NCBI GenBank assembly: GCA_017592665.1
Contig: JAGFNW010000038.1
Coordinates: 1 to 64,000 of the forward strand
DNA from: Streptosporangiaceae bacterium NEAU-GS5
Lineage (GTDB): Bacteria > Actinomycetota > Actinomycetes > Streptosporangiales > Streptosporangiaceae
DNA length: 64,000 nt
Reading direction: 5' to 3'
Below the pieces are notes generated by a model. That model was not told the origin of the DNA. It did no database searches and saw nothing but the letters and a program-made list of their open reading frames with translations. Both the position numbers and the translations under genes were made by a program. Of this stretch, positions 3,935 through 41,629 are shown piece by piece (within the stretch, counting starts at the first letter, position 1; every line of letters starts with the position of its first letter).

Positions 3935-4233
3935 CATCTGATCAGGACCGACGTCCTCCATGGGTGTCGGGCCCGATCCTTGCTGGGGCCGTGATGGGGG
4001 GGGCATGCTGGGCCAGGCCGAGCCGCCCGGCAGCGGCCTGGCGGGCCACGTCGGGGACGACGCCGATTGGCGCGGTTCCTCACCCCTGGCAAGGACCTCA
4101 CGGTGTCCGTTCAGCGAGGAGCCGCTGCACCCTGTATACGGTGGCCGACGTCGCCGGAGCCGAACCGCCGGCATGGCTGGGTCGGCCTTGGGTGGGCGAG
4201 AGCGTGCCTGTCGCCCGCCCAAGGCGGGGTGCG
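3935..4233. other. Intergenic stretch, no gene recognised
   Basis: Between the tRNA remnant and the VOC gene at 4234 I see no coding sequence in any frame. The only structure is the hairpin at 4186-4224, annotated separately. The composition is GC-rich with a run of eight G at about 3996. Confidence 0.5.
4186..4224 (-). terminator. Terminator hairpin of the VOC gene
   Basis: CCTTGGGTGGGCGA at 4186-4199 pairs with TCGCCCGCCCAAGG at 4211-4224: 14 positions with a single mismatch/GU, and an 11-base loop. It lies 9 bp beyond the stop of the minus-strand gene at 4234. No U-tract follows. Confidence 0.6.
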
Positions 4234-4743: not shown

Positions 4744-5937
<1,194 letters not shown>

Positions 5938-27255: not shown

Positions 27256-28161
27256 ATGCTGAACCTGACCCACCTCAAGGTGCTGGATGCGGTCGCCCGC
27301 CATGGATCAGTGACCGAAGCCGCGAAAGAGCTCCACTACTCCCAGTCGTCGGTCAGCCATCACCTGGGGCGGCTGGAGGCCGACACCGGAGCCAGGCTCA
27401 TCCAACGCGTGGGCCGCGGCATCCGGCTCACCCCCGAAGGGGAGCTACTGGCGCAACGGGCGACAGAGATCCTGGGGCGGGTGGACGCCGCATCGGCCGA
27501 ACTGGCCGCCCGGGTGGGACTTCGCGCCGGACGTGTACGGCTGGCCGGTTTCCAAACGGTCCTCAGCACCCTGGTGCCGAAGGCGGCCGCCGAGCTGTCC
27601 CGGTCGCATCCGGGAATCGAGCTGAACCTCGTCGACGCCCACCCGGTCGTGGGCCTGGACATGCTCCGTTCCGGGCACGTCGACATCGCCCTGATCTTCC
27701 GGAACGCCGACACTCCTCCCAGCGAGGAGGAAGGATTCCGGCTCACCCACCTGCTGGACGACCCGCTCTACCTCATCAGTGATCAACCCCAGCAGCGTCT
27801 GGAGGACCACCGCGACTCCGCCTGGGTCGGCGGCTGCGAACGCTGCCGAGCCGCCACGATCACGGCATGCGAGCGCGCCGGCTTCACACCGCGCATCGCC
27901 TACTCGTGCGACGACACGGTCATCGCCCAGGCAGTGGTAGCCGCCGGAATGGGCGTCGCGATAGTCAACGGGCTCGCGTTACATGCCCACCGGGCGGCGG
28001 GCGTCCATGCCACCCGACTCGCCGACACCCCCCGCCGGATCTATGCCGCCACGTACGGCGACCCGCCGGACCCGCCCGCCACGACCGCGCTGATCGAGAT
28101 CCTGGCATCGACCGCCATGACACTCACCGCCCCGAGCCGCTTCTCCGTCACCGCACGTTGA
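27256..28161 (+). CDS. LysR family transcriptional regulator
   Basis: The 301-aa protein has the LysR N-terminal helix-turn-helix (Gly-Ser-Val-Thr-Glu-Ala-Ala-Lys-Glu-Leu-His-Tyr-Ser-Gln-Ser-Ser-Val-Ser-His-His, residues 17-36) and the substrate-binding domain (Gly-Arg-Val-Arg-Leu-Ala-Gly-Phe and Gly-Met-Gly-Val-Ala-Ile-Val). The length is normal. It is divergent from the DHFR-like gene, the classic LysR arrangement. There is no ribosome binding site, in line with a leaderless start. Confidence 0.88.
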   Translation: MLNLTHLKVLDAVARHGSVTEAAKELHYSQSSVSHHLGRLEADTGARLIQRVGRGIRLTPEGELLAQRATEILGRVDAASAELAARVGLRAGRVRLAGFQTVLSTLVPKAAAELSRSHPGIELNLVDAHPVVGLDMLRSGHVDIALIFRNADTPPSEEEGFRLTHLLDDPLYLISDQPQQRLEDHRDSAWVGGCERCRAATITACERAGFTPRIAYSCDDTVIAQAVVAAGMGVAIVNGLALHAHRAAGVHATRLADTPRRIYAATYGDPPDPPATTALIEILASTAMTLTAPSRFSVTAR

Positions 28162-28219
28162 CCTCGGCGACCGAGGAGTCCACTGTACGAGAGGTAAATT
28201 GGGCCTCCGGGAGGAGCCG

Positions 28220-28825
28220 ATGGTTCGGGTTCTGGTCGCCGAAGACATGCGCATCCTGCGCGACGCGCTGGTGGCGATGCTCAACCTCGAGGACGACCTC
28301 GAGGTCGTCGCCGAAGTCGCCGCCGGGGATCACATCGTGCCGGCCGCGCTGGCGCACCGACCCGACGTGGCCGTCGTGGACATCGACCTGCCAGGCGTCG
28401 ACGGGATCAGCGCGGCCGCGGAGCTACGTGAGAAGGTTCCCTCCTGCCGGGTGCTGGTCCTGACCGGGCTGGGCCGCCCGCGTGAGCTGCGCCGCGCGCT
28501 GGCCGAGCACGTGTCCGGATTCCTGCTCAAACACGCGCCGTCGGAGGAGTTGGTCGACGCCGTTCGGCAGGTTGCCGCAGGCGGCCGCGTGTTCGACGCC
28601 AAGCTCACCGTGGCAGCGCTGGAGGCGGCGGAAAGCCCGCTGTCCGCCCGGGAGGCCGAGGTCCTGCGGCGCTATGCGGACGGCGCGTCCGCGGCCGAGA
28701 TCGCGGCCGAGCTCTATCTGTCCTACGGCACCGTTCGCAATTATCTGGCGTCGGCGGTGACCAAGCTGAGCGCGCGCAATCGGGTGGACGCCGCCCGCAT
28801 CGCCGGCGAGGCCGGCTGGCTGTAG
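28220..28825 (+). CDS. NarL/FixJ-type response regulator
   Basis: The 201-aa protein has a receiver domain with phospho-acceptor Asp54 (Val-Val-Asp-Ile-Asp-Leu-Pro-Gly) and Lys near residue 101, then a LuxR-type helix-turn-helix (Leu-Ser-Ala-Arg-Glu-Ala-Glu-Val-Leu to Gly-Thr-Val-Arg-Asn-Tyr-Leu, about 139-183). GGGAGGAG precedes ATG 28220. The closely similar receiver-only gene at 28928 and the histidine kinase at 29225-31225 belong to the same module. It is of the DesR type that pairs with HisKA_3 kinases. Confidence 0.88.
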   Translation: MVRVLVAEDMRILRDALVAMLNLEDDLEVVAEVAAGDHIVPAALAHRPDVAVVDIDLPGVDGISAAAELREKVPSCRVLVLTGLGRPRELRRALAEHVSGFLLKHAPSEELVDAVRQVAAGGRVFDAKLTVAALEAAESPLSAREAEVLRRYADGASAAEIAAELYLSYGTVRNYLASAVTKLSARNRVDAARIAGEAGWL

Positions 28826-28835
28826 GGACGCGGCC

Positions 28836-28863
28836 GTGCATTTTGCACATCGTGATGGTGCAA
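28836..28863. promoter_or_regulatory. GTGCA/TGCAC operator before the receiver-only regulator
   Basis: Three half-sites occur in a row: GTGCA-TTT-TGCAC (28836-28848, perfect palindrome) and then TTGCAC-N9-GTGCAA (28843-28863, sharing the middle half-site). The sequence TGCACATCG recurs in the same arrangement at 31306-31322 upstream of the kinase. It lies about 65 bp before the gene at 28928. Confidence 0.65.
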
Positions 28864-28927
28864 TCCGCACGGTGAGATCGGGCTGTGGCCACTGGCCGCA
28901 AGCGCCGTACGCGTCGAGACTGAGCAA

Positions 28928-29323
28928 ATGAGCATCCGAGTCCTGATCGCAGAAGACGCGGACGCCTACCGCGACACGCTGGTCGCTCTCCTGGACCTTG
29001 AGGACGATTTCGAGGTGGTCGCGGCGCTGTCCTCGGGCGAGCGCATCGTGTCGACGGCGCTTGAGCATCGCCCCGATGTGGCGCTGCTCGACATCGACCT
29101 GCCCGGCGTCGACGGCCTCACCGCGAGCGCCGAGCTGGCTCGGCGGCTGCCCGACTGCCAGGTCCTCATCCTGACCGGCCTGACCTTCAACGACGGCTTC
29201 CGCCGGGCGCAAGCAGTGGGCGCGTCAGGGTTCCTCTTCAAGGACGGCTCGGCCGACGGCCTCATCGACGCCGTGCGGAGGGTCGCCCGGGGCGAACGCG
29301 TCTTCGACGCCCGATCGCACTGA
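28928..29323 (+). CDS. Receiver-only response regulator, truncated paralogue without DNA-binding domain
   Basis: The 131-aa protein matches its neighbour at 28220 through the receiver (phospho-acceptor Asp55 in Leu-Leu-Asp-Ile-Asp-Leu-Pro-Gly) and up to Glu-Arg-Val-Phe-Asp-Ala. It then stops after three more residues, where the neighbour continues into its helix-turn-helix. The 3' 99 bp overlap the end of the convergent kinase gene. A deletion has probably joined the regulator to the kinase. It could act as a phosphate sink or dimerise with the full-length regulator, or be a decaying gene. Confidence 0.75.
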   Translation: MSIRVLIAEDADAYRDTLVALLDLEDDFEVVAALSSGERIVSTALEHRPDVALLDIDLPGVDGLTASAELARRLPDCQVLILTGLTFNDGFRRAQAVGASGFLFKDGSADGLIDAVRRVARGERVFDARSH

Positions 29324-31225
29324 CGGTTCCACCGGCAGCGGGATCCGCACGGTCAGCGTGAAGCCACCGGCGTCGGCGCGCTGAGTGAGGTGGCCGCCCA
29401 GGGCTTCGGCGCGTGCGGCGAGGTTGGCCAGGCCGTGCCCGCCGACGCGCGACTTCGGCGCATCTTCTGCGACGCCGTCGTTGACGATCGTGAGACTGAC
29501 CGCGTCCGCGCCCACGATCAGGTCGAACTCGCACCGCGTGGCTCGGGCATGGCGCAGGGCGTTGGCGACCGCCTCCCGGAGCACAGTGGCCAGGACCGCC
29601 TCGACCTGTTCGGGCAGCGGCTGGTCCGGCGCCGCGAAATGGACCTCGACCGCCACGTCGGCCGAGTCAAGCACGTCGCGGGCGGCGGTCAGCTCGGCCT
29701 GCAACGACAGCCCGTGCTCGCCTGACGTGACCGCCCGGATGTCGGCGCGGGCCCGCGTGGTGAGCCGTACCAGCGCGTCGACCTCGCCCTGGGCCCGAGC
29801 GTCGTCGCGGCCGATGAGCCGACCGGCCAGGTCGCATTTCAACGCGATCGCGGACAGCCCCAACCCGAGCAGGTCGTGGGTGTCCTGGGCGACGCGCAGG
29901 CGCTCCCGGTTGACGGCGGTCCGCGCCAGCTCACGGCGGGCAGCCTCCAGCTGCTCGGCGAGCGCGGTGAGACGCGACAGCCCGTACACCGCGAGGCCGG
30001 TCGACGCCTCCAGGCCGATGTAGTACAGCGCGACGTCGAGTTGATCCGGCCGCAGCAACGCCCTGGGCACTCCGACACTCGCCGCCATGAGCGCGAACAC
30101 CAGCCACGCCCGCCGCCCCCGCAACAGCAGCAGCGCCGAACCCGCCGGGAAGCCCACCATCCCGACCAGCGACGTCTTCTCCAGGTCTCCGAACATGGCC
30201 GCGATCGCCGCGAACGGCAGCAGGATCTGGAGCGGCAGTGTCAGACGCCAGGCCCGTGGGCGGGTGCCGGCCCGAATGGCAAGCGAATGGTGCAGCTGTA
30301 GCGCGACGATCGCGACGATCGCGGCCACTCCGGCCGCCTTGGCCGGACCGCCCACGTACTCGTCGACGACGATCACCACATGATGGCCGGCGAACACGGT
30401 CAAGTCGATGACCAGAACCAGCAGGGCCAGCCGCGGCGCCACCGTCCGGCCGGTGCGGGCCGGCGGCTCGTCGCGGTCGCCCCACTCCAGGCCCACGGTT
30501 TGGCGTATCTGCTCCGCCGCCTGCCGCGCGATGCCGGCGGCGTCCTTCAGGTGGGCGCGAGCCTGGCCCGGGACTTTCGACAGTGCCGACAAGGCGGCCG
30601 CGGCGTGCGTCGTGACCACGTCCAGCCTGTCGCCGATCGCCACACCCAGCCGTGCGGCGGCCCGCAGGCGTTCCTGGGTCACCGCCGACGCCGCGAGCTC
30701 GGTGCGGGCCGCGCGGAGCTCCGCTACCAGATCAGACAGCCGGACCAGTCCGTACAACGGCAGCGCCATGTCCACCGGCACGATGAACACCCACGAGATG
30801 TACTGAGGACCTCCGACGGGGTAAACGCCGAGCACGCCCAGACGCAGCACCGCTTCGACCGCGACGATCGCGGCGAACAGCAGCCACGACAGCCGCGTCG
30901 AAATGACCAGCAACACCAGCCCGCCCAGCAGGCCGGACAGGCCCGTGGCCCACTTCTGGCCGAACACGGCGAAGGGCACGTAGGTCAGGACGGCCTGCGC
31001 GGCCAGCAGCCACCATGGGTGGCGAGCCCACACCGCCCGGCCCCACGGGATCGTGTACAGCAACGGCAACGCGAACAGCACGACCGTCGTCACCGCACCG
31101 GCGACGCCGAGCTCGAGGCCGAACGCGACGCCGACCCTGGCCGGCAGGAGGAGGCAGAGGAAGGCCACCGGAAACATCCAGACGAGCCGGGGCGCCGCCG
31201 CTAATCGCCCGTCTTTGCCGATCAC
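29225..31225 (-). CDS. DesK/NarX-type sensor histidine kinase with duplicated sensor-DHp half
   Basis: The 666-aa membrane protein has two similar halves. Each has about five transmembrane helices, an Arg-Leu-hydrophobic linker and a Glu-Arg-Leu-Arg helix. The second half has the active His450 (Ala-Gln-Asp-Thr-His-Asp-Leu-Leu-Gly) and a HATPase domain with Glu-Ala-Val-Ala-Asn-Ala-Leu-Arg-His and Gly-Gly-His-Gly-Leu-Ala-Asn-Leu. In the first half the histidine position is Gly194 and no ATPase domain follows. The last 33 residues, beyond Val-Arg-Ile-Pro-Leu-Pro, are read from the antisense of the receiver gene and are not kinase-like. ATG 31225 follows GGGAGAT. Confidence 0.88.
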   Translation of the reverse strand: MIGKDGRLAAAPRLVWMFPVAFLCLLLPARVGVAFGLELGVAGAVTTVVLFALPLLYTIPWGRAVWARHPWWLLAAQAVLTYVPFAVFGQKWATGLSGLLGGLVLLVISTRLSWLLFAAIVAVEAVLRLGVLGVYPVGGPQYISWVFIVPVDMALPLYGLVRLSDLVAELRAARTELAASAVTQERLRAAARLGVAIGDRLDVVTTHAAAALSALSKVPGQARAHLKDAAGIARQAAEQIRQTVGLEWGDRDEPPARTGRTVAPRLALLVLVIDLTVFAGHHVVIVVDEYVGGPAKAAGVAAIVAIVALQLHHSLAIRAGTRPRAWRLTLPLQILLPFAAIAAMFGDLEKTSLVGMVGFPAGSALLLLRGRRAWLVFALMAASVGVPRALLRPDQLDVALYYIGLEASTGLAVYGLSRLTALAEQLEAARRELARTAVNRERLRVAQDTHDLLGLGLSAIALKCDLAGRLIGRDDARAQGEVDALVRLTTRARADIRAVTSGEHGLSLQAELTAARDVLDSADVAVEVHFAAPDQPLPEQVEAVLATVLREAVANALRHARATRCEFDLIVGADAVSLTIVNDGVAEDAPKSRVGGHGLANLAARAEALGGHLTQRADAGGFTLTVRIPLPVEPSVRSGVEDAFAPGDPPHGVDEAVGRAVLEEEP

Positions 31226-31251
31226 CTCATCTCCCTCCCGCGATCCCGGAC

Positions 31252-31305
31252 GGTACGCGACGCGGTGACGGTACGCGACGCGGTTACGTCACGCGACGCG
31301 GCGAG
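31252..31305. repeat. Three tandem 18-bp direct repeats upstream of the kinase
   Basis: GGTACGCGACGCGGTGAC (31252-31269), GGTACGCGACGCGGTTAC (31270-31287) and GTCACGCGACGCGGCGAG (31288-31305) abut exactly. The core ACGCGACGCGG is identical in all three. They stand between the divergent kinase and DJ-1-like genes and run directly into the GTGCA-N3-TGCAC palindrome, which suggests a multi-site regulatory array. Confidence 0.7.
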
Positions 31306-31322
31306 GTGCAGACTGCACATCG
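31306..31322. promoter_or_regulatory. GTGCA-N3-TGCACATCG operator between kinase and DJ-1 genes
   Basis: GTGCA-GAC-TGCAC (31306-31318) followed by ATCG repeats the element at 28836-28852 with the same 3-bp spacing. Its place in the divergent region suggests that one regulator, probably the NarL-type protein at 28220, controls kinase, DJ-1-like protein and receiver gene. Confidence 0.6.
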
Positions 31323-31428
31323 CGCGCAGTGCGAACGCATGCCGGGTTGGTGCTCGCGACACTGACCCGCTCCCACCTGGCCGTTCGAAAATCAGGCCAT
31401 GGAAGTACACCGTTGCGTGGGAGGGAAA

Positions 31429-33258
31429 ATGGGCGACAACGTCTACCGTGGACGCGCCGGCGTGGTGTTCCGATTCGCGGGCCACCTGCTGCCGATGGTG
31501 CTGGCGATGATGGCGGGCATGCTTCTCCTCGCTCCGCTGTGGAGCGCGGCGTTGCCGGAGGCGACCGCCAGAGCCGACCTGAAGGCATTGGTCATGGCGA
31601 CCGACATGGCCATAGGAATGGCCGTGTGGATGCGCATCCGCCGGCACGGCTGGGTGAGCATCGCCGAGATGAGCGCCGCGATGTACGCGCCGTTCCTGGT
31701 GCTCTTCATCCCGTACTGGGCGGGCGCGATCTCGGAACCGACCCTGATGATCGCCGGGCACGCGCTCATGCTACCCGCCATGGTCGCGGCGATGCTGCGG
31801 CGGCGGGAGGAGTACCTCCGGCCACACCACCACCACGGGCGAAAATGGTTCCGGCGGATCGCCTGGATCGCCGTGGTTCTCGCCGTGGTCGCGACTCCGC
31901 CGGCCGTGGCCGCCGCCGTCAATGCCGCGTCGTACAAGAGCAGCCTCTATCAGCCGGCCGTCGACGTCGCGGTGCCGGCATCGGTACGCGATGCCACGCC
32001 GCCACCGCACGACCCGGCCAAGCCCACCGCGGTCGTACTCGTCGGCAACGAGGGCGCCCACGTCGGCGATGCCCTCGCCGCCTACGAAACACTGGCCGCG
32101 ACCAGGGCGTTCAACCTCTACACGGTCGCGCCGGAGCGGCGCCGCGTTCCGATGACCGGCGGCCTGGATCTCATACCCGACCTCGATTTCGCCCACCTGG
32201 ACCAGCGGCTCGCCGGAAAGCCGGCCGACGTCATCGTCGTGCCGCAGCTGCCGAACCCCGACGCCGTCCGGCCGATCCACGCCTGGCTGGCCGCGCAGTC
32301 TCGGGCCGGTGCGCTTGTCGTCGGCGTCTGCGTCGGCTCGGAGGTCCTCGCCGCGGCCGGCCTGCTCGACGGGCGCGACGCGACGTCGCACTGGTATTAC
32401 CTCGGAGCCCTGGAAGAGAAATACCCTTCGGTGCGCTGGCACCGCGCCACCCGATACGTCGACGACGGCGACATCATCACCACCGGCGGCGTGCTGTCCG
32501 GCATCGACGGCATGCTCCGCGTCATCGAGCGCCGGCTGGGCACGCGGGCCGCGGCCGCCGCAGCCACCACCGTCGGCTGGCGGTTCTACTCCCCGGGCGC
32601 TCCCGCGCCGCTTCCGCCGTCCGCGTTCGGCCTGCGGGACACGATCGCCGGAGTGAACCTGAGCTTCCGGTCCAAGCCGACCATCGGCGTGCTGCTCACC
32701 GACGGTGTCGGCGAGATCGAACTCGCCTCGATCTTCGCTACGTACACCGAGGCGTCCTACGCGGCGCGGACCGTGACGGTGGGCTCTGGGTCGACGAACC
32801 CGGTGCGCTCCCGGCACGGCCTCGTCTTCGTGCCCCGAACCGACCTGTCCACCGCCACCAACCTCGACCGGCTGCTCGTTCCCGGCGCCGAAGCGGCCCG
32901 CCGGGCCGGCCCGGCGCTGGACGCGCACGGCCTCACCCCTGAGTACGTGCATGCCACGCCCGGCTTCCCGTTCGACGCGGTGCTGCGTGACATGGCCCGT
33001 ACGGTGGACGTGCCGACCGCCGAGTGGCGCGCCAAGACGCTGGAGTATCCAGCGGACGCGCTCGAGCTGACCGGCCCTGGCTGGCCGTGGGGCGCCACGC
33101 TGCTCCCGTTGCTGTACGGCCTCATCAGCCTCGCCGGCGCCGGTGCGCTCTGGGCCGCCTGGCGGGCGACGCAGGCCAGGCGCACACTCAGGCCGGCTCT
33201 CACGACGACCGCCGCCGACCAGTCTCGTGAGCCGGCCTTCACCGAGGTCCGCACATAG
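31429..33258 (+). CDS. Membrane-anchored DJ-1/PfpI (class I glutamine amidotransferase-like) protein
   Basis: The 609-aa protein begins with four to five transmembrane helices (residues 18-165) and a His-rich loop (Pro-His-His-His-His, 132-136). A DJ-1/PfpI domain follows with the nucleophile elbow Val-Gly-Val-Cys301-Val-Gly-Ser-Glu. A second, weaker DJ-1-like segment (Ile-Gly-Val-Leu-Leu-Thr-Asp-Gly-Val-Gly-Glu-Ile-Glu, about 425-490) lacks the cysteine. A final transmembrane helix lies near 565-585. ATG 31429 has GGGAGGG upstream. DJ-1 proteins deglycate, hydrolyse or sense stress; here location and gene pairing with the kinase suggest a membrane sensory role. Confidence 0.78.
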   Translation: MGDNVYRGRAGVVFRFAGHLLPMVLAMMAGMLLLAPLWSAALPEATARADLKALVMATDMAIGMAVWMRIRRHGWVSIAEMSAAMYAPFLVLFIPYWAGAISEPTLMIAGHALMLPAMVAAMLRRREEYLRPHHHHGRKWFRRIAWIAVVLAVVATPPAVAAAVNAASYKSSLYQPAVDVAVPASVRDATPPPHDPAKPTAVVLVGNEGAHVGDALAAYETLAATRAFNLYTVAPERRRVPMTGGLDLIPDLDFAHLDQRLAGKPADVIVVPQLPNPDAVRPIHAWLAAQSRAGALVVGVCVGSEVLAAAGLLDGRDATSHWYYLGALEEKYPSVRWHRATRYVDDGDIITTGGVLSGIDGMLRVIERRLGTRAAAAAATTVGWRFYSPGAPAPLPPSAFGLRDTIAGVNLSFRSKPTIGVLLTDGVGEIELASIFATYTEASYAARTVTVGSGSTNPVRSRHGLVFVPRTDLSTATNLDRLLVPGAEAARRAGPALDAHGLTPEYVHATPGFPFDAVLRDMARTVDVPTAEWRAKTLEYPADALELTGPGWPWGATLLPLLYGLISLAGAGALWAAWRATQARRTLRPALTTTAADQSREPAFTEVRT

Positions 33259-38896: not shown

Positions 38897-41629
38897 GTGC
38901 CCGGAGGAAAAGGTGCGACGACCGGCACCTCGGTAGCGGACGGCCAGGCGGCGGGCGGCCCGGTGGGTGCCGCCCCGCCGGGGCTGCTCGACCGGAAAGA
39001 TCTCCTTCAGCTGCTCGACCGCGCCGTGGCCAAGCGCCTGACGGTCATCTCGGCGCCTCCGGGAAGTGGCAAGACCTCGCTGTTACGCACGTGGGCCGAC
39101 CACGCGACGAAGCTTCGCCGGGTCGCGTTCGTGTCCGTGGAGCGCGATCAGCAGAACGAACAGCGGTTCTGGTGCGGCGTCCTCGACGCCGTCCGCGAAC
39201 CAGCGAACCCGGTGACGTCCGCGGCGCCCGCCACCGCACCGGCCGTGGACCAGGTGATCGGCAGCGTGCTGGCGGAGCTCGCCGAACACGCCGGACCGGT
39301 CGTCCTGATCATCGACGACCTCCACGAGCTGAGGTCGGCCGACGCCCTCACGCAGCTCGAATACTTCCTCGCGAATCTGCCCGGCAATGCGCGCGTGGTG
39401 CTGTCCTCCCGCCGGGATCCGCCGATCAGGCTGCACCAGCTCCGGCTTGCCGACGAGATCGCCGAGATCCGCGCCGGCGATCTGCGGTTCACCGAGGCCG
39501 AGACACGCGAGCTGCTGGCCGGGTCCAGGATCGGCCTGTCCAGCGACGCGATGGCGGCGCTTCACCAGCGCACCGAAGGGTGGGCGGCAGGCCTGCGCCT
39601 GGCGGTGATCTCGCTCACCGGTCACCCGGAGCCCGAGCGCTTCGTTGCCGAGTTCTCCGGGAACGACCGCGCCATCGGGGAGTACCTGATGGCCGAGATG
39701 CTGGACAGGCAACCGGGCGAGATTCGGCGCATGCTGCTGCGGACCTCGGTCGTCAACCGCATGAACGGCGAACTGGCCGACCTGCTGACCGGCCGCGCGG
39801 GCGCCGAGCAGATGCTGCTGGCGCTGGAGGAGGCGAACGCGTTCGTCGTCTCGCTCGACGCCCAGCGCACCTGGTTTCGCTACCACCAGCTCCTGGCGGA
39901 CTTCCTGCGGCTGGAGCTCCGTCGTACGGCCGCAGACGAGGTTCCCGGCCTGCACCGCCGGGCCGCGCGGTGGTTCGCGGACCGGGGAGAGGTGGTCGAG
40001 GCGGTGCGGCACACGGTCGCGGCCGGCGACTGGCCCGATGCCGCTCGAATCGTCGCGGACCACTCGTTCAGGTGGGTGCTCGAGGGACAGGCCGCAACTA
40101 TTCGTACAGTCCTGCAGGCGTTTCCAGCAGGGGCCGCGGCCGATCATCCCGACCTCGCGCTTGCTCACGCGGCCGCCGAGCTGAACCAGGGGCGGACCGA
40201 GGAGGCGGCCGCTCAACTGGCGCTGGCCGAGTCCCACCTTCAAAGCGGCCCCCCGGCGCGCCGCCGCCGGGCGGTGGCGATCGCGTCCCTGCGACTGGCG
40301 CTGGCACGGCGTAGTGGCCGGTTCAGTGAGGTGATCGATCTGGTGAAGATGCTCGACGCGTCAATGGCGGACACATCCGGCGAACGGCCCGCGGTGGGAA
40401 GCGAGCTGCGTGTGGTCGCGCTTTTGAACCTCGGGATAGTCGAGACCTGGACCGGGCGGCTCATCGAGGCCGAACGTCATCTCTCCGACGCGGCCACGCT
40501 CGCCCAGGAGATCGGCCGTCCCTATCTGGAAGTCGCGTGCCGAGCGCACCAAGGTTTTCCATCCAAGACGGTCTCGGTGACGGCGGCACGTGAGCGCGGC
40601 CGTGAGGCGGTGGCCCTCGCCGAACGCCATGGCCTGGGTGATCACCCGATAATCGCGCCCGCGCTCGGGGCCGTCGGTGGCATGGCGATCTGGATGGGCG
40701 AATTCGACGAGGGGGAACGCTGGCTGCGCCGTGCCTGGGAGGTCGGCTCCGCACACGTCGAGCCCGCCACCGCCGTGCTCCTGCATCTGGCCAACGGCAT
40801 GTTGCAGGCGGCTCGCGGGCGGCAGCGATCGGCTCTGGACGCATTCACGGCGGCAGCGCGTACGCAGTCGCTGCTCACCGGCGCGCACGCGCTCGCGCCG
40901 CGGATCGCCGGATGGCTCGCGACCACGCAGGCTCGGCTGGGAATGGCGGCCGAGGCGCGCGCGACGCTGGCCGCGTTCTCCCCCGAGCCGGGACGCGCGA
41001 GCGCCATCGCCAACGCGCGAGCATGGATGTGTCTCCTGGACCGAAACCCCGGCATGGCGTTGGAGGCACTCCACGGCATCCGGAACGCCACACCTCCGAC
41101 CGAACCGTACAGCCTCGTCGAAGCGCATCTGCTCGCCGGCAACGCACACCTGCGCTCGGGCGATCGAGACGCCGCGGCAGCGGCTGCCGAAGCGGCTCTC
41201 ACGGCCGCCGAGCCCGACCGGCTCGTCTTCCCGTTCGCCCTGACCGAGGCCGCGGAGTTGCTCGACGTGCTCCGGCACCACGAGACGGCGCATCGAGCCC
41301 TGCTCGCTGACATCGCCGACCAGCTGAGGGGCGAGTCGGCGCCGGGCGCGGACCGAGAGCCGCCGCCCCACTCCGACGAGCTCACCCCGAGCGAACTACG
41401 CGTCTTGGGATATCTCCCGACAAACCTGACGCGAGCCGAAATCGCGCATGAGCTCCACGTCTCGATACACACGGTCAACACTCACATCCGCAACATCTAT
41501 GCCAAGCTCGGTGCGGGAGACCGGTCCGTCGCCGTGCAACGCGCACGCCAGTTGCGGCTGCTCTCCAACCGGCTTTCGCCGACGTCTCCGAACCACCTCA
41601 GGTCCGTACGGCCCAGGCCCGCGCCCTAA
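38897..41629 (+). CDS. MalT-like LuxR family ATP-dependent transcriptional regulator
   Basis: The 910-aa STAND-type regulator has Walker A Ala53-Pro-Pro-Gly-Ser-Gly-Lys-Thr60 and Walker B Leu-Ile-Ile-Asp-Asp-Leu-His. A winged segment Trp-Phe-Arg-Tyr-His-Gln-Leu-Leu follows, then a long TPR-like helical array (about 400-830) and a C-terminal LuxR helix-turn-helix (Leu-Thr-Pro-Ser-Glu-Leu-Arg-Val-Leu to His-Thr-Val-Asn-Thr-His-Ile-Arg). MalT-type proteins activate genes after binding an inducer and ATP. The divergent MBL-SDR genes are the expected target. Confidence 0.92.
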   Translation: MPGGKGATTGTSVADGQAAGGPVGAAPPGLLDRKDLLQLLDRAVAKRLTVISAPPGSGKTSLLRTWADHATKLRRVAFVSVERDQQNEQRFWCGVLDAVREPANPVTSAAPATAPAVDQVIGSVLAELAEHAGPVVLIIDDLHELRSADALTQLEYFLANLPGNARVVLSSRRDPPIRLHQLRLADEIAEIRAGDLRFTEAETRELLAGSRIGLSSDAMAALHQRTEGWAAGLRLAVISLTGHPEPERFVAEFSGNDRAIGEYLMAEMLDRQPGEIRRMLLRTSVVNRMNGELADLLTGRAGAEQMLLALEEANAFVVSLDAQRTWFRYHQLLADFLRLELRRTAADEVPGLHRRAARWFADRGEVVEAVRHTVAAGDWPDAARIVADHSFRWVLEGQAATIRTVLQAFPAGAAADHPDLALAHAAAELNQGRTEEAAAQLALAESHLQSGPPARRRRAVAIASLRLALARRSGRFSEVIDLVKMLDASMADTSGERPAVGSELRVVALLNLGIVETWTGRLIEAERHLSDAATLAQEIGRPYLEVACRAHQGFPSKTVSVTAARERGREAVALAERHGLGDHPIIAPALGAVGGMAIWMGEFDEGERWLRRAWEVGSAHVEPATAVLLHLANGMLQAARGRQRSALDAFTAAARTQSLLTGAHALAPRIAGWLATTQARLGMAAEARATLAAFSPEPGRASAIANARAWMCLLDRNPGMALEALHGIRNATPPTEPYSLVEAHLLAGNAHLRSGDRDAAAAAAEAALTAAEPDRLVFPFALTEAAELLDVLRHHETAHRALLADIADQLRGESAPGADREPPPHSDELTPSELRVLGYLPTNLTRAEIAHELHVSIHTVNTHIRNIYAKLGAGDRSVAVQRARQLRLLSNRLSPTSPNHLRSVRPRPAP

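Follow-up and report, generated by a model that had tools for sequence, protein, structure and literature searches.

The stretch of DNA analysed here (the window, 64,000 nucleotides of contig JAGFNW010000038.1 from Streptosporangiaceae bacterium NEAU-GS5) carries a LysR-type gene (27256-28161), a gene for a DesR-like response regulator (RR) and one for a stand-alone receiver (REC), all on the plus strand, followed by a minus-strand histidine kinase gene (HK) and a plus-strand gene for a DJ-1/PfpI membrane-type protein (DJ-1). A preliminary description of the window had pointed to a shared 17-bp element before the receiver gene and between the kinase and DJ-1 genes, and we located it at both places, as GTGCATTTTGCACATCG at 28836-28852 and as GTGCAGACTGCACATCG at 31306-31322. 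The palindrome taken for the operator is indeed present twice, but it is just box 1 of an array of three boxes and makes up 17 of the approximately 92 bp of a promoter module (Table 1). Judged from its sequence, the locus probably encodes a two-component system of the DesK/DesR type in which three sites serve activation and which may contain its own limiter.

The three-box promoters and their genes

Table 1. Features of the two-component locus in the window. Box centres are counted with the A of the start codon as +1.
Feature	Position	Strand	Description	Basis
RR	28220..28825	+	DesR-like NarL-family response regulator (receiver + GerE/LuxR helix-turn-helix, HTH), proposed box binder	Pfam, solved-structure match
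REC promoter box 1	28836..28848	+	GTGCA-TTT-TGCAC, centre -86 from ATG 28928	
REC promoter box 2	28858..28870	+	GTGCA-ATC-CGCAC, centre -64	
REC promoter box 3	28880..28892	+	GGGCT-GTG-GCCAC-TGG, weak (2/5 symmetric pairs), centre -42	
REC promoter -10-like hexamer	28916..28921	+	GAGACT, 6 nt before ATG 28928	
REC	28928..29323	+	HTH-less stand-alone receiver, RR paralogue; 99-bp overlap with the 3′ end of the oppositely oriented kinase gene	
HK	29225..31225	-	DesK-like membrane histidine kinase, two modules	Pfam, structure match, alignment
18-bp direct repeats	31249..31304	.	three units between the kinase start and DJ-1 box 1	Tandem Repeats Finder (TRF), sequence
DJ-1 promoter box 1	31306..31318	+	GTGCA-GAC-TGCAC, centre -87 from ATG 31399	
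DJ-1 promoter box 2	31329..31341	+	core TGCG-AA-CGCA, 1 base shorter than in relatives, centre about -64	
DJ-1 promoter box 3	31350..31362	+	GTGCT-CGC-GACAC-TGA, centre -43	
DJ-1 promoter -10-like hexamer	31387..31392	+	GAAAAT, 6 nt before ATG 31399	
DJ-1	31399..33258	+	DJ-1/PfpI membrane-type protein: helical N domain + DJ-1 domain, C-terminal helix; alternative start 31429	

In the window promoters, the boxes lie 21-23 bp apart and are followed, after 23-24 bp, by the -10-like hexamer, with the innermost box at the place of a -35 element. Four further genomes of the family have this module before related genes (nine promoters). Across the 11 promoters of these five genomes the box centres are separated by 22-23 and then 21-22 bp, the -10 starts 30-31 bp from the centre of box 3, and the hexamer reads NANANT in every case (11/11). 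A spacing of about 22 bp corresponds to two helical turns and so places the three boxes on one face of the DNA. Leaderless starts are predicted for the four REC promoters and the DJ-1 promoter of the window, since their ATG lies 5-6 nt past the -10. A scan for sigma-70-like promoters detected none, and the promoters are without a good -35. The 28836 palindrome was also considered as a terminator of RR and set aside, 28100-31600 giving 1 terminator-like match versus 1.3 in shuffles.

This geometry bears on whether the boxes activate or repress. Repression, with phosphorylated or unphosphorylated regulator blocking the promoters, would fit the overlap of box 3 with the -35 region, from which polymerase could be excluded. 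It seems improbable to us, because phased sites upstream of the -35, a fixed distance to the -10 and the lack of a good -35 are a better fit to activation, and a repressor would not need exact phasing.

The full element, GTGCA-N3-TGCAC-ATCG, has 2 matches in the 9.96-Mb genome, those at 28836 and 31306, and none in the reversed control. Without the ATCG flank the palindrome occurs at four places (C51:62494, C60:28836, C60:31306 and C84:56778). The copies at C51:62494 and C84:56778 were rejected as regulon members, as the full promoter model scores at most 1.3 in the surrounding 5-kb stretches; they are probably chance occurrences. With up to two mismatches, the motif was found 29 times in the window versus 39 expected from shuffles. 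It is not over-represented there, so what counts as signal is the pair of exact copies with their surroundings.

Both signalling proteins resemble the Des system of Bacillus subtilis. RR matches the Pfam families Response_reg (1.1e-19) and GerE (2.2e-15), and its top match among solved proteins is B. subtilis DesR (4ldz, E 1.4e-44). HK contains HisKA_3 (residues 441-500) and HATPase_c (543-631) in its second half, along with long hydrophobic stretches seen by eye; its top solved match is DesK (7ssj, E 1.2e-24), and its named relatives come from Kitasatospora and Catenulispora. By these matches, RR and HK are homologues of DesR and DesK. The phospho-acceptor-type His450 of the second HK module is present in 10/10 aligned kinases. 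No matching histidine is found in the first module of the window kinase or of those at L222, L065, L068, L167 and L171. A dead DHp in the first module could not be kept as a family-wide trait, a histidine standing at the matching place in L067, L165, L176 and L179 (4/10, by eye).

The DJ-1 protein matches DJ-1_PfpI (2.8e-16), while its hydrophobic N domain has no Pfam family; Cys311 is invariant in the 10 aligned proteins. With a mean predicted local distance difference test score of 64.9, its predicted model is of fair quality in the N-terminal helices and first DJ-1 domain, where block means are mostly 64-94; past residue 406 most of the chain is poorly modelled. The Foldseek matches listed for it are DJ-1-superfamily proteins, including isocyanide hydratase.

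The preliminary description had also reported three 18-bp repeats of exact period as an extension of the operator at 31306. The repeats are real and in phase (TRF: 31249-31301, period 18, 2.9 copies, 91% matches), but only two units are identical and the third differs. The extension itself is not borne out. The unit has one stray match elsewhere in its own genome, its 3 matches in the 222 fetched loci all come from the window's own region, and in the 200 nt upstream of box 1 TRF detected no array of 18-bp units at any of 11 other promoters checked. The array is, from the loci compared, an addition specific to this genome and probably not part of the switch. Its three in-phase units between the kinase start and box 1 could be read as the sites of a second regulator controlling the kinase gene, or as part of the operator, and in G511 a different tandem array also lies beside REC box 1. 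We find this unlikely given their absence from the other promoters and fetched loci and a period of 18 bp against a box spacing of 21-23 bp. Nor does the array answer to iterons of the replication or partition type, the repeats being flanked by the kinase and DJ-1 genes and missing from relatives. The G511 array, directly upstream of REC box 1 (L116, 4213-4286), is unrelated, with a 20-bp unit in 3.7 copies.

Recurrence of the module in other genomes

Homologues of the regulator (E 1e-55 or better) occur in 311 of the 341 family genomes compared, and five genomes (G000, G608, G511, G540 and G028) encode one with at least 75% identity; G665, with a match of 73% over 173 residues, was left out of the genomes examined. 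A strict three-box pattern gave 8 matches in the 341 genomes, in G511 (2), G540 (1), G608 (3) and G625 (2). The two in G625 overlap and represent a 21-bp tandem repeat, whereas the six sites in G511, G540 and G608 all fall among the five regulator genomes. The reversed pattern gave 4 matches in 3 other genomes, and a relaxed pattern applied to the five regulator genomes gave 9 sites versus 3 for its reverse. Further targets behind the module are an MFS transporter in G540 (relaxed pattern) and, in G608, a membrane protein that matches DUF6010 below threshold (strict and relaxed patterns). G608 also has a lone DJ-1 N domain (DJ-1N, 152 aa) behind a module, followed by an open reading frame (ORF) that resembles the G540 MFS transporter by eye. 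Counting all 11 promoters, the genes behind them encode REC, DJ-1 or DJ-1N, MFS and a transmembrane protein. The module found at DJ-1 precedes REC in all four family genomes in which REC adjoins a regulator of the 75% clade.

The 11 promoters were chosen for mutual resemblance, so the independent tests weigh more. In leave-one-out scoring, each of them was recovered at its own offset (32.6-65.7). A model built from the nine promoters of the four other genomes scored 48.5 at 28836 and 32.9 at 31306, with the next score in the window, barring shifted and opposite-strand readings of both modules, at 5.4. Conversely, a model from the two window promoters only ranked the known promoters first in 6/6 other loci. 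As controls on the locus sets, reversed sequence gave no match of 15 or above, and three Markov shuffles per set gave at most two matches, the best scoring 20.7.

Among 41 loci outside the clade (set B, including L066, L067, L068 and L070, which hold regulator paralogues of 61-63%), one exceeded the controls: the DJ-1 gene of G183, a genome of another family, with a score of 45.0. The regulator adjoining this gene is just 31% like RR. A search made after the promoter match found RR at 78% and REC at 68% identity on another contig of G183, together with HK (48%, residues 6-666) and DJ-1N, in the order and orientation of the window. Modules precede DJ-1N (46.4) and REC (23.8, inner boxes only), and the 99-bp antisense overlap of the HK and REC 3′ ends is present as in the window. 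The two halves of the window DJ-1 protein are encoded in G183 by separate genes on different contigs, each behind a module, and by this comparison the window gene is a fusion of the two. The search at orthologous loci proposed in the preliminary description therefore finds the element in four other family genomes and in G183.

The grammar may extend further. At 17 loci with a regulator paralogue (16 in relatives at 64-70% and C38 of the window's own genome at 60%), 11 reach a score of 15 and 8 exceed the best control; L177, L165 and L180 score below it. Epoxide hydrolases (Pfam EHN) are the targets in five of the eight (L166, L168, L171, L172 and L178), and the remaining three are a kinase (L174), a receiver (L164) and a protein without Pfam match (L169). 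The pairing of a two-component system with an epoxide hydrolase thus recurs at five paralogous regulator loci. One broad reading is a large DesR-like branch that reuses a single grammar (three dimer sites at -42/-64/-86, in a 22-bp phase, and a NANANT -10) for unrelated cargo such as kinases, epoxide hydrolases, an MFS transporter and DJ-1 membrane proteins. In one sub-branch, a single duplication of the regulator would have given the HTH-less receiver, whose mixed dimers would poison the ordered filling of the array and give a pulse, with gene conversion keeping the pair alike. We put this reading forward tentatively, as doubtful in its full extent.

Two other loci gave sites of their own. 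L034, from a Catenulispora metagenome-assembled genome with a paralogue at 58%, shows a weak minus-strand site (25.0 at 4156, poor box 1) before an ORF of approximately 650 aa. In G550 (L205), the genes of a second regulator and of a RibD_C-type protein diverge from modules scoring 23.0 and 36.3 (2299 on the minus and 2344 on the plus strand), and autoregulation of this second regulator is possible.

Several observations weigh against the regulon reading or against a general rule. In the window itself, two boxes are weak: in the 13-base frame, DJ-1 box 2 has 0/5 and REC box 3 has 2/5 symmetric pairs, where chance gives 1.5, although the core of DJ-1 box 2, TGCG-AA-CGCA, is a palindrome in its own right. 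Pattern searching loses at least one of the two window sites: the relaxed pattern found a single match (28836) in the window's own genome versus 3 reversed, and a second relaxed version 1 versus 0. A wider regulon in this genome was not recovered by these patterns, which found only 28836; as they miss the window's own DJ-1 site, weaker sites may exist there. A class-wide pattern, which is too strict for use, matched 1 of 394 genomes (G095, a site also in L171) versus 2 matches for its reverse. Of the 17 paralogue loci, 9 are not above controls. Nothing above 13.7 was found at L033, L066, L067, L068 and L070 (paralogues at 61-64%); L033, like L034, lies outside both scored sets and was scanned separately afterwards. 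Among the regulator-homologue loci L204-L221, 4/18 have a match above 12, at three places besides the second site of L205: L204 and L215 (one G183 site), L205 and L216 (the L164 site). REC is absent at the G028 locus. No 9-of-10 box is present at the full-length DJ-1 gene of G608 (L113) or at 11 other DJ-1 loci of genus g4 that lack this regulator as a neighbour (L072, L114 and L117-L125), and different regulators precede DJ-1 genes in genus g4 and elsewhere. At L075, L129, L131 and L132, another conserved element (GGTATCAGTCGATGCCGA or close to it) lies upstream of DJ-1 genes adjoining a different kinase and regulator, a regulator swap at the same target.

Regulator, receiver and the proposed circuit

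The preliminary description had outlined a small regulon of regulator, receiver, kinase and DJ-1 membrane protein. Operator placement and conservation across genomes support the receiver and the DJ-1 membrane gene as its targets. Membership of the kinase is not supported, as by eye no -10 lies at the conserved distance facing the kinase gene. The adjacent NarL-type regulator most likely runs the regulon, as far as gene content and promoter sequence can tell. The boxes could instead be bound by another regulator, either unlinked or the LysR-type protein, whose gene lies directly upstream of RR; a LysR-type gene (37%) is also found near the regulator paralogue of L169, and in other lineages other regulators stand before DJ-1 genes. 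This LysR is unmatched at L065, L115, L116, L163 and L222, whereas all five genomes encode the DesR-like regulator, which turned up in G183 once the promoter had pointed there, and we give binding by another regulator the least credence of the alternatives weighed here. The window also encodes a 910-aa regulator of the LAL type, a large NTPase that ends in a LuxR HTH (38897-41629).

REC matches Response_reg alone (1.6e-20) and in alignment retains the receiver active-site residues, namely the Asp, the Lys and the acidic pair. In a receiver tree of 29 rows with midpoint root (L163 and L164 rows extracted by hand), the REC proteins of the window, G540, G511, G608, G183 and G550 group to one side of a branch supported at 97/97; with a midpoint root, a single origin of REC is likely, short of proof. 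A recent truncation was ruled out by the conservation of REC in these five other genomes and by the 99-bp kinase overlap recurring in G183. Within G540 (L115) and G511 (L116), RR and REC share identical 60/60-base windows, versus 0.52-0.72 in the last windows, which suggests gene conversion between tandem paralogues. The window pair has no identical stretch, and its best 60-bp window reaches 0.78.

In the preferred reading, an activating switch with REC as limiter, the two-module membrane kinase would phosphorylate the DesR-like regulator, as its family suggests. Dimers of phosphorylated regulator would then occupy the three boxes, approximately 22 bp apart on one face of the DNA, and the innermost box (-42/-43), overlapping the -35 region, would recruit RNA polymerase to the NANANT -10 promoter. 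The predicted outcome is activation of the DJ-1 membrane gene and of the HTH-less REC. Because it keeps the active-site residues, REC should accept phosphoryl groups from the same kinase or dock on it, or pair with the regulator, and might in this way damp the response that induces it. In G511 only a remnant is left of the kinase beside DJ-1 (L116, about 5071-5242), while the regulator, receiver, DJ-1 and both modules are retained; another kinase may feed the regulator there.

For negative feedback as such, we consider the balance roughly even; REC could act positively or elsewhere. As a positive partner it would pair with the regulator on DNA, or it could carry a separate output, for example to DJ-1. 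The retention of REC alongside RR in G540, G511, G608, G183 and G550 is compatible with this, and positive response-regulator heterodimers are described for BldM-WhiI of Streptomyces (PMC4125116). However, a mixed dimer with the HTH-less REC would contact DNA through one half only, and G028 has the regulator, kinase and DJ-1 module with no REC at the locus. A positive or separate role appears the lesser possibility, though a real one.

Comparison with known systems

No published DesR operator sequence was found in the literature passages searched, and neither the operator nor the gene set was found described by a search that had most subscription papers outside its reach. The three-box module offers a testable operator rule for this branch of regulators; where the rule holds, targets could be read from sequence. 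The locus further gives a clean setting for testing what stand-alone receivers do: a regulator appears to induce a truncated copy of itself, the gene order is conserved and a single origin is probable. As targets, the DJ-1 membrane protein and MFS transporter hint at membrane or electrophile stress.

The closest known system is DesK-DesR of B. subtilis, which provides the top solved matches of HK and RR and shares the HisKA_3 kinase and the NarL-type regulator. At the des promoter, DesR binds two adjacent sites and activates from them. In contrast, we find three boxes, a kinase with an extra module and an HTH-less receiver in the circuit, with the DJ-1 membrane protein and the receiver as proposed targets, and an MFS transporter and membrane proteins in relatives. 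No fatty-acid desaturase was seen among the targets of the 11 promoters, and the system is for this reason called DesKR-type rather than DesKR.

BldM and BldM-WhiI of Streptomyces are likewise response regulators acting at palindromic promoter sites, with two different regulators pairing (PMC4125116). The 16-bp BldM group I consensus given there, TCACcCgnncGgGTGA, is unlike GTGCA-N3-TGCAC, and both partners of that pair are orphan regulators that bind DNA.

The nearest parallel for REC is Osp, a single-domain receiver of Rhodobacter sphaeroides: CtrA activates the gene for Osp, and Osp inhibits CckA (PMC9430884). Both are stand-alone receivers, and REC has no output domain and keeps its active-site residues; control by the system's own regulator is shown there for Osp and would apply to REC by our reading of its promoter. 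Osp acts in the CckA-ChpT-CtrA phosphorelay, whose proteins belong to other families, whereas REC is a recent paralogue of RR that may inhibit its own system.

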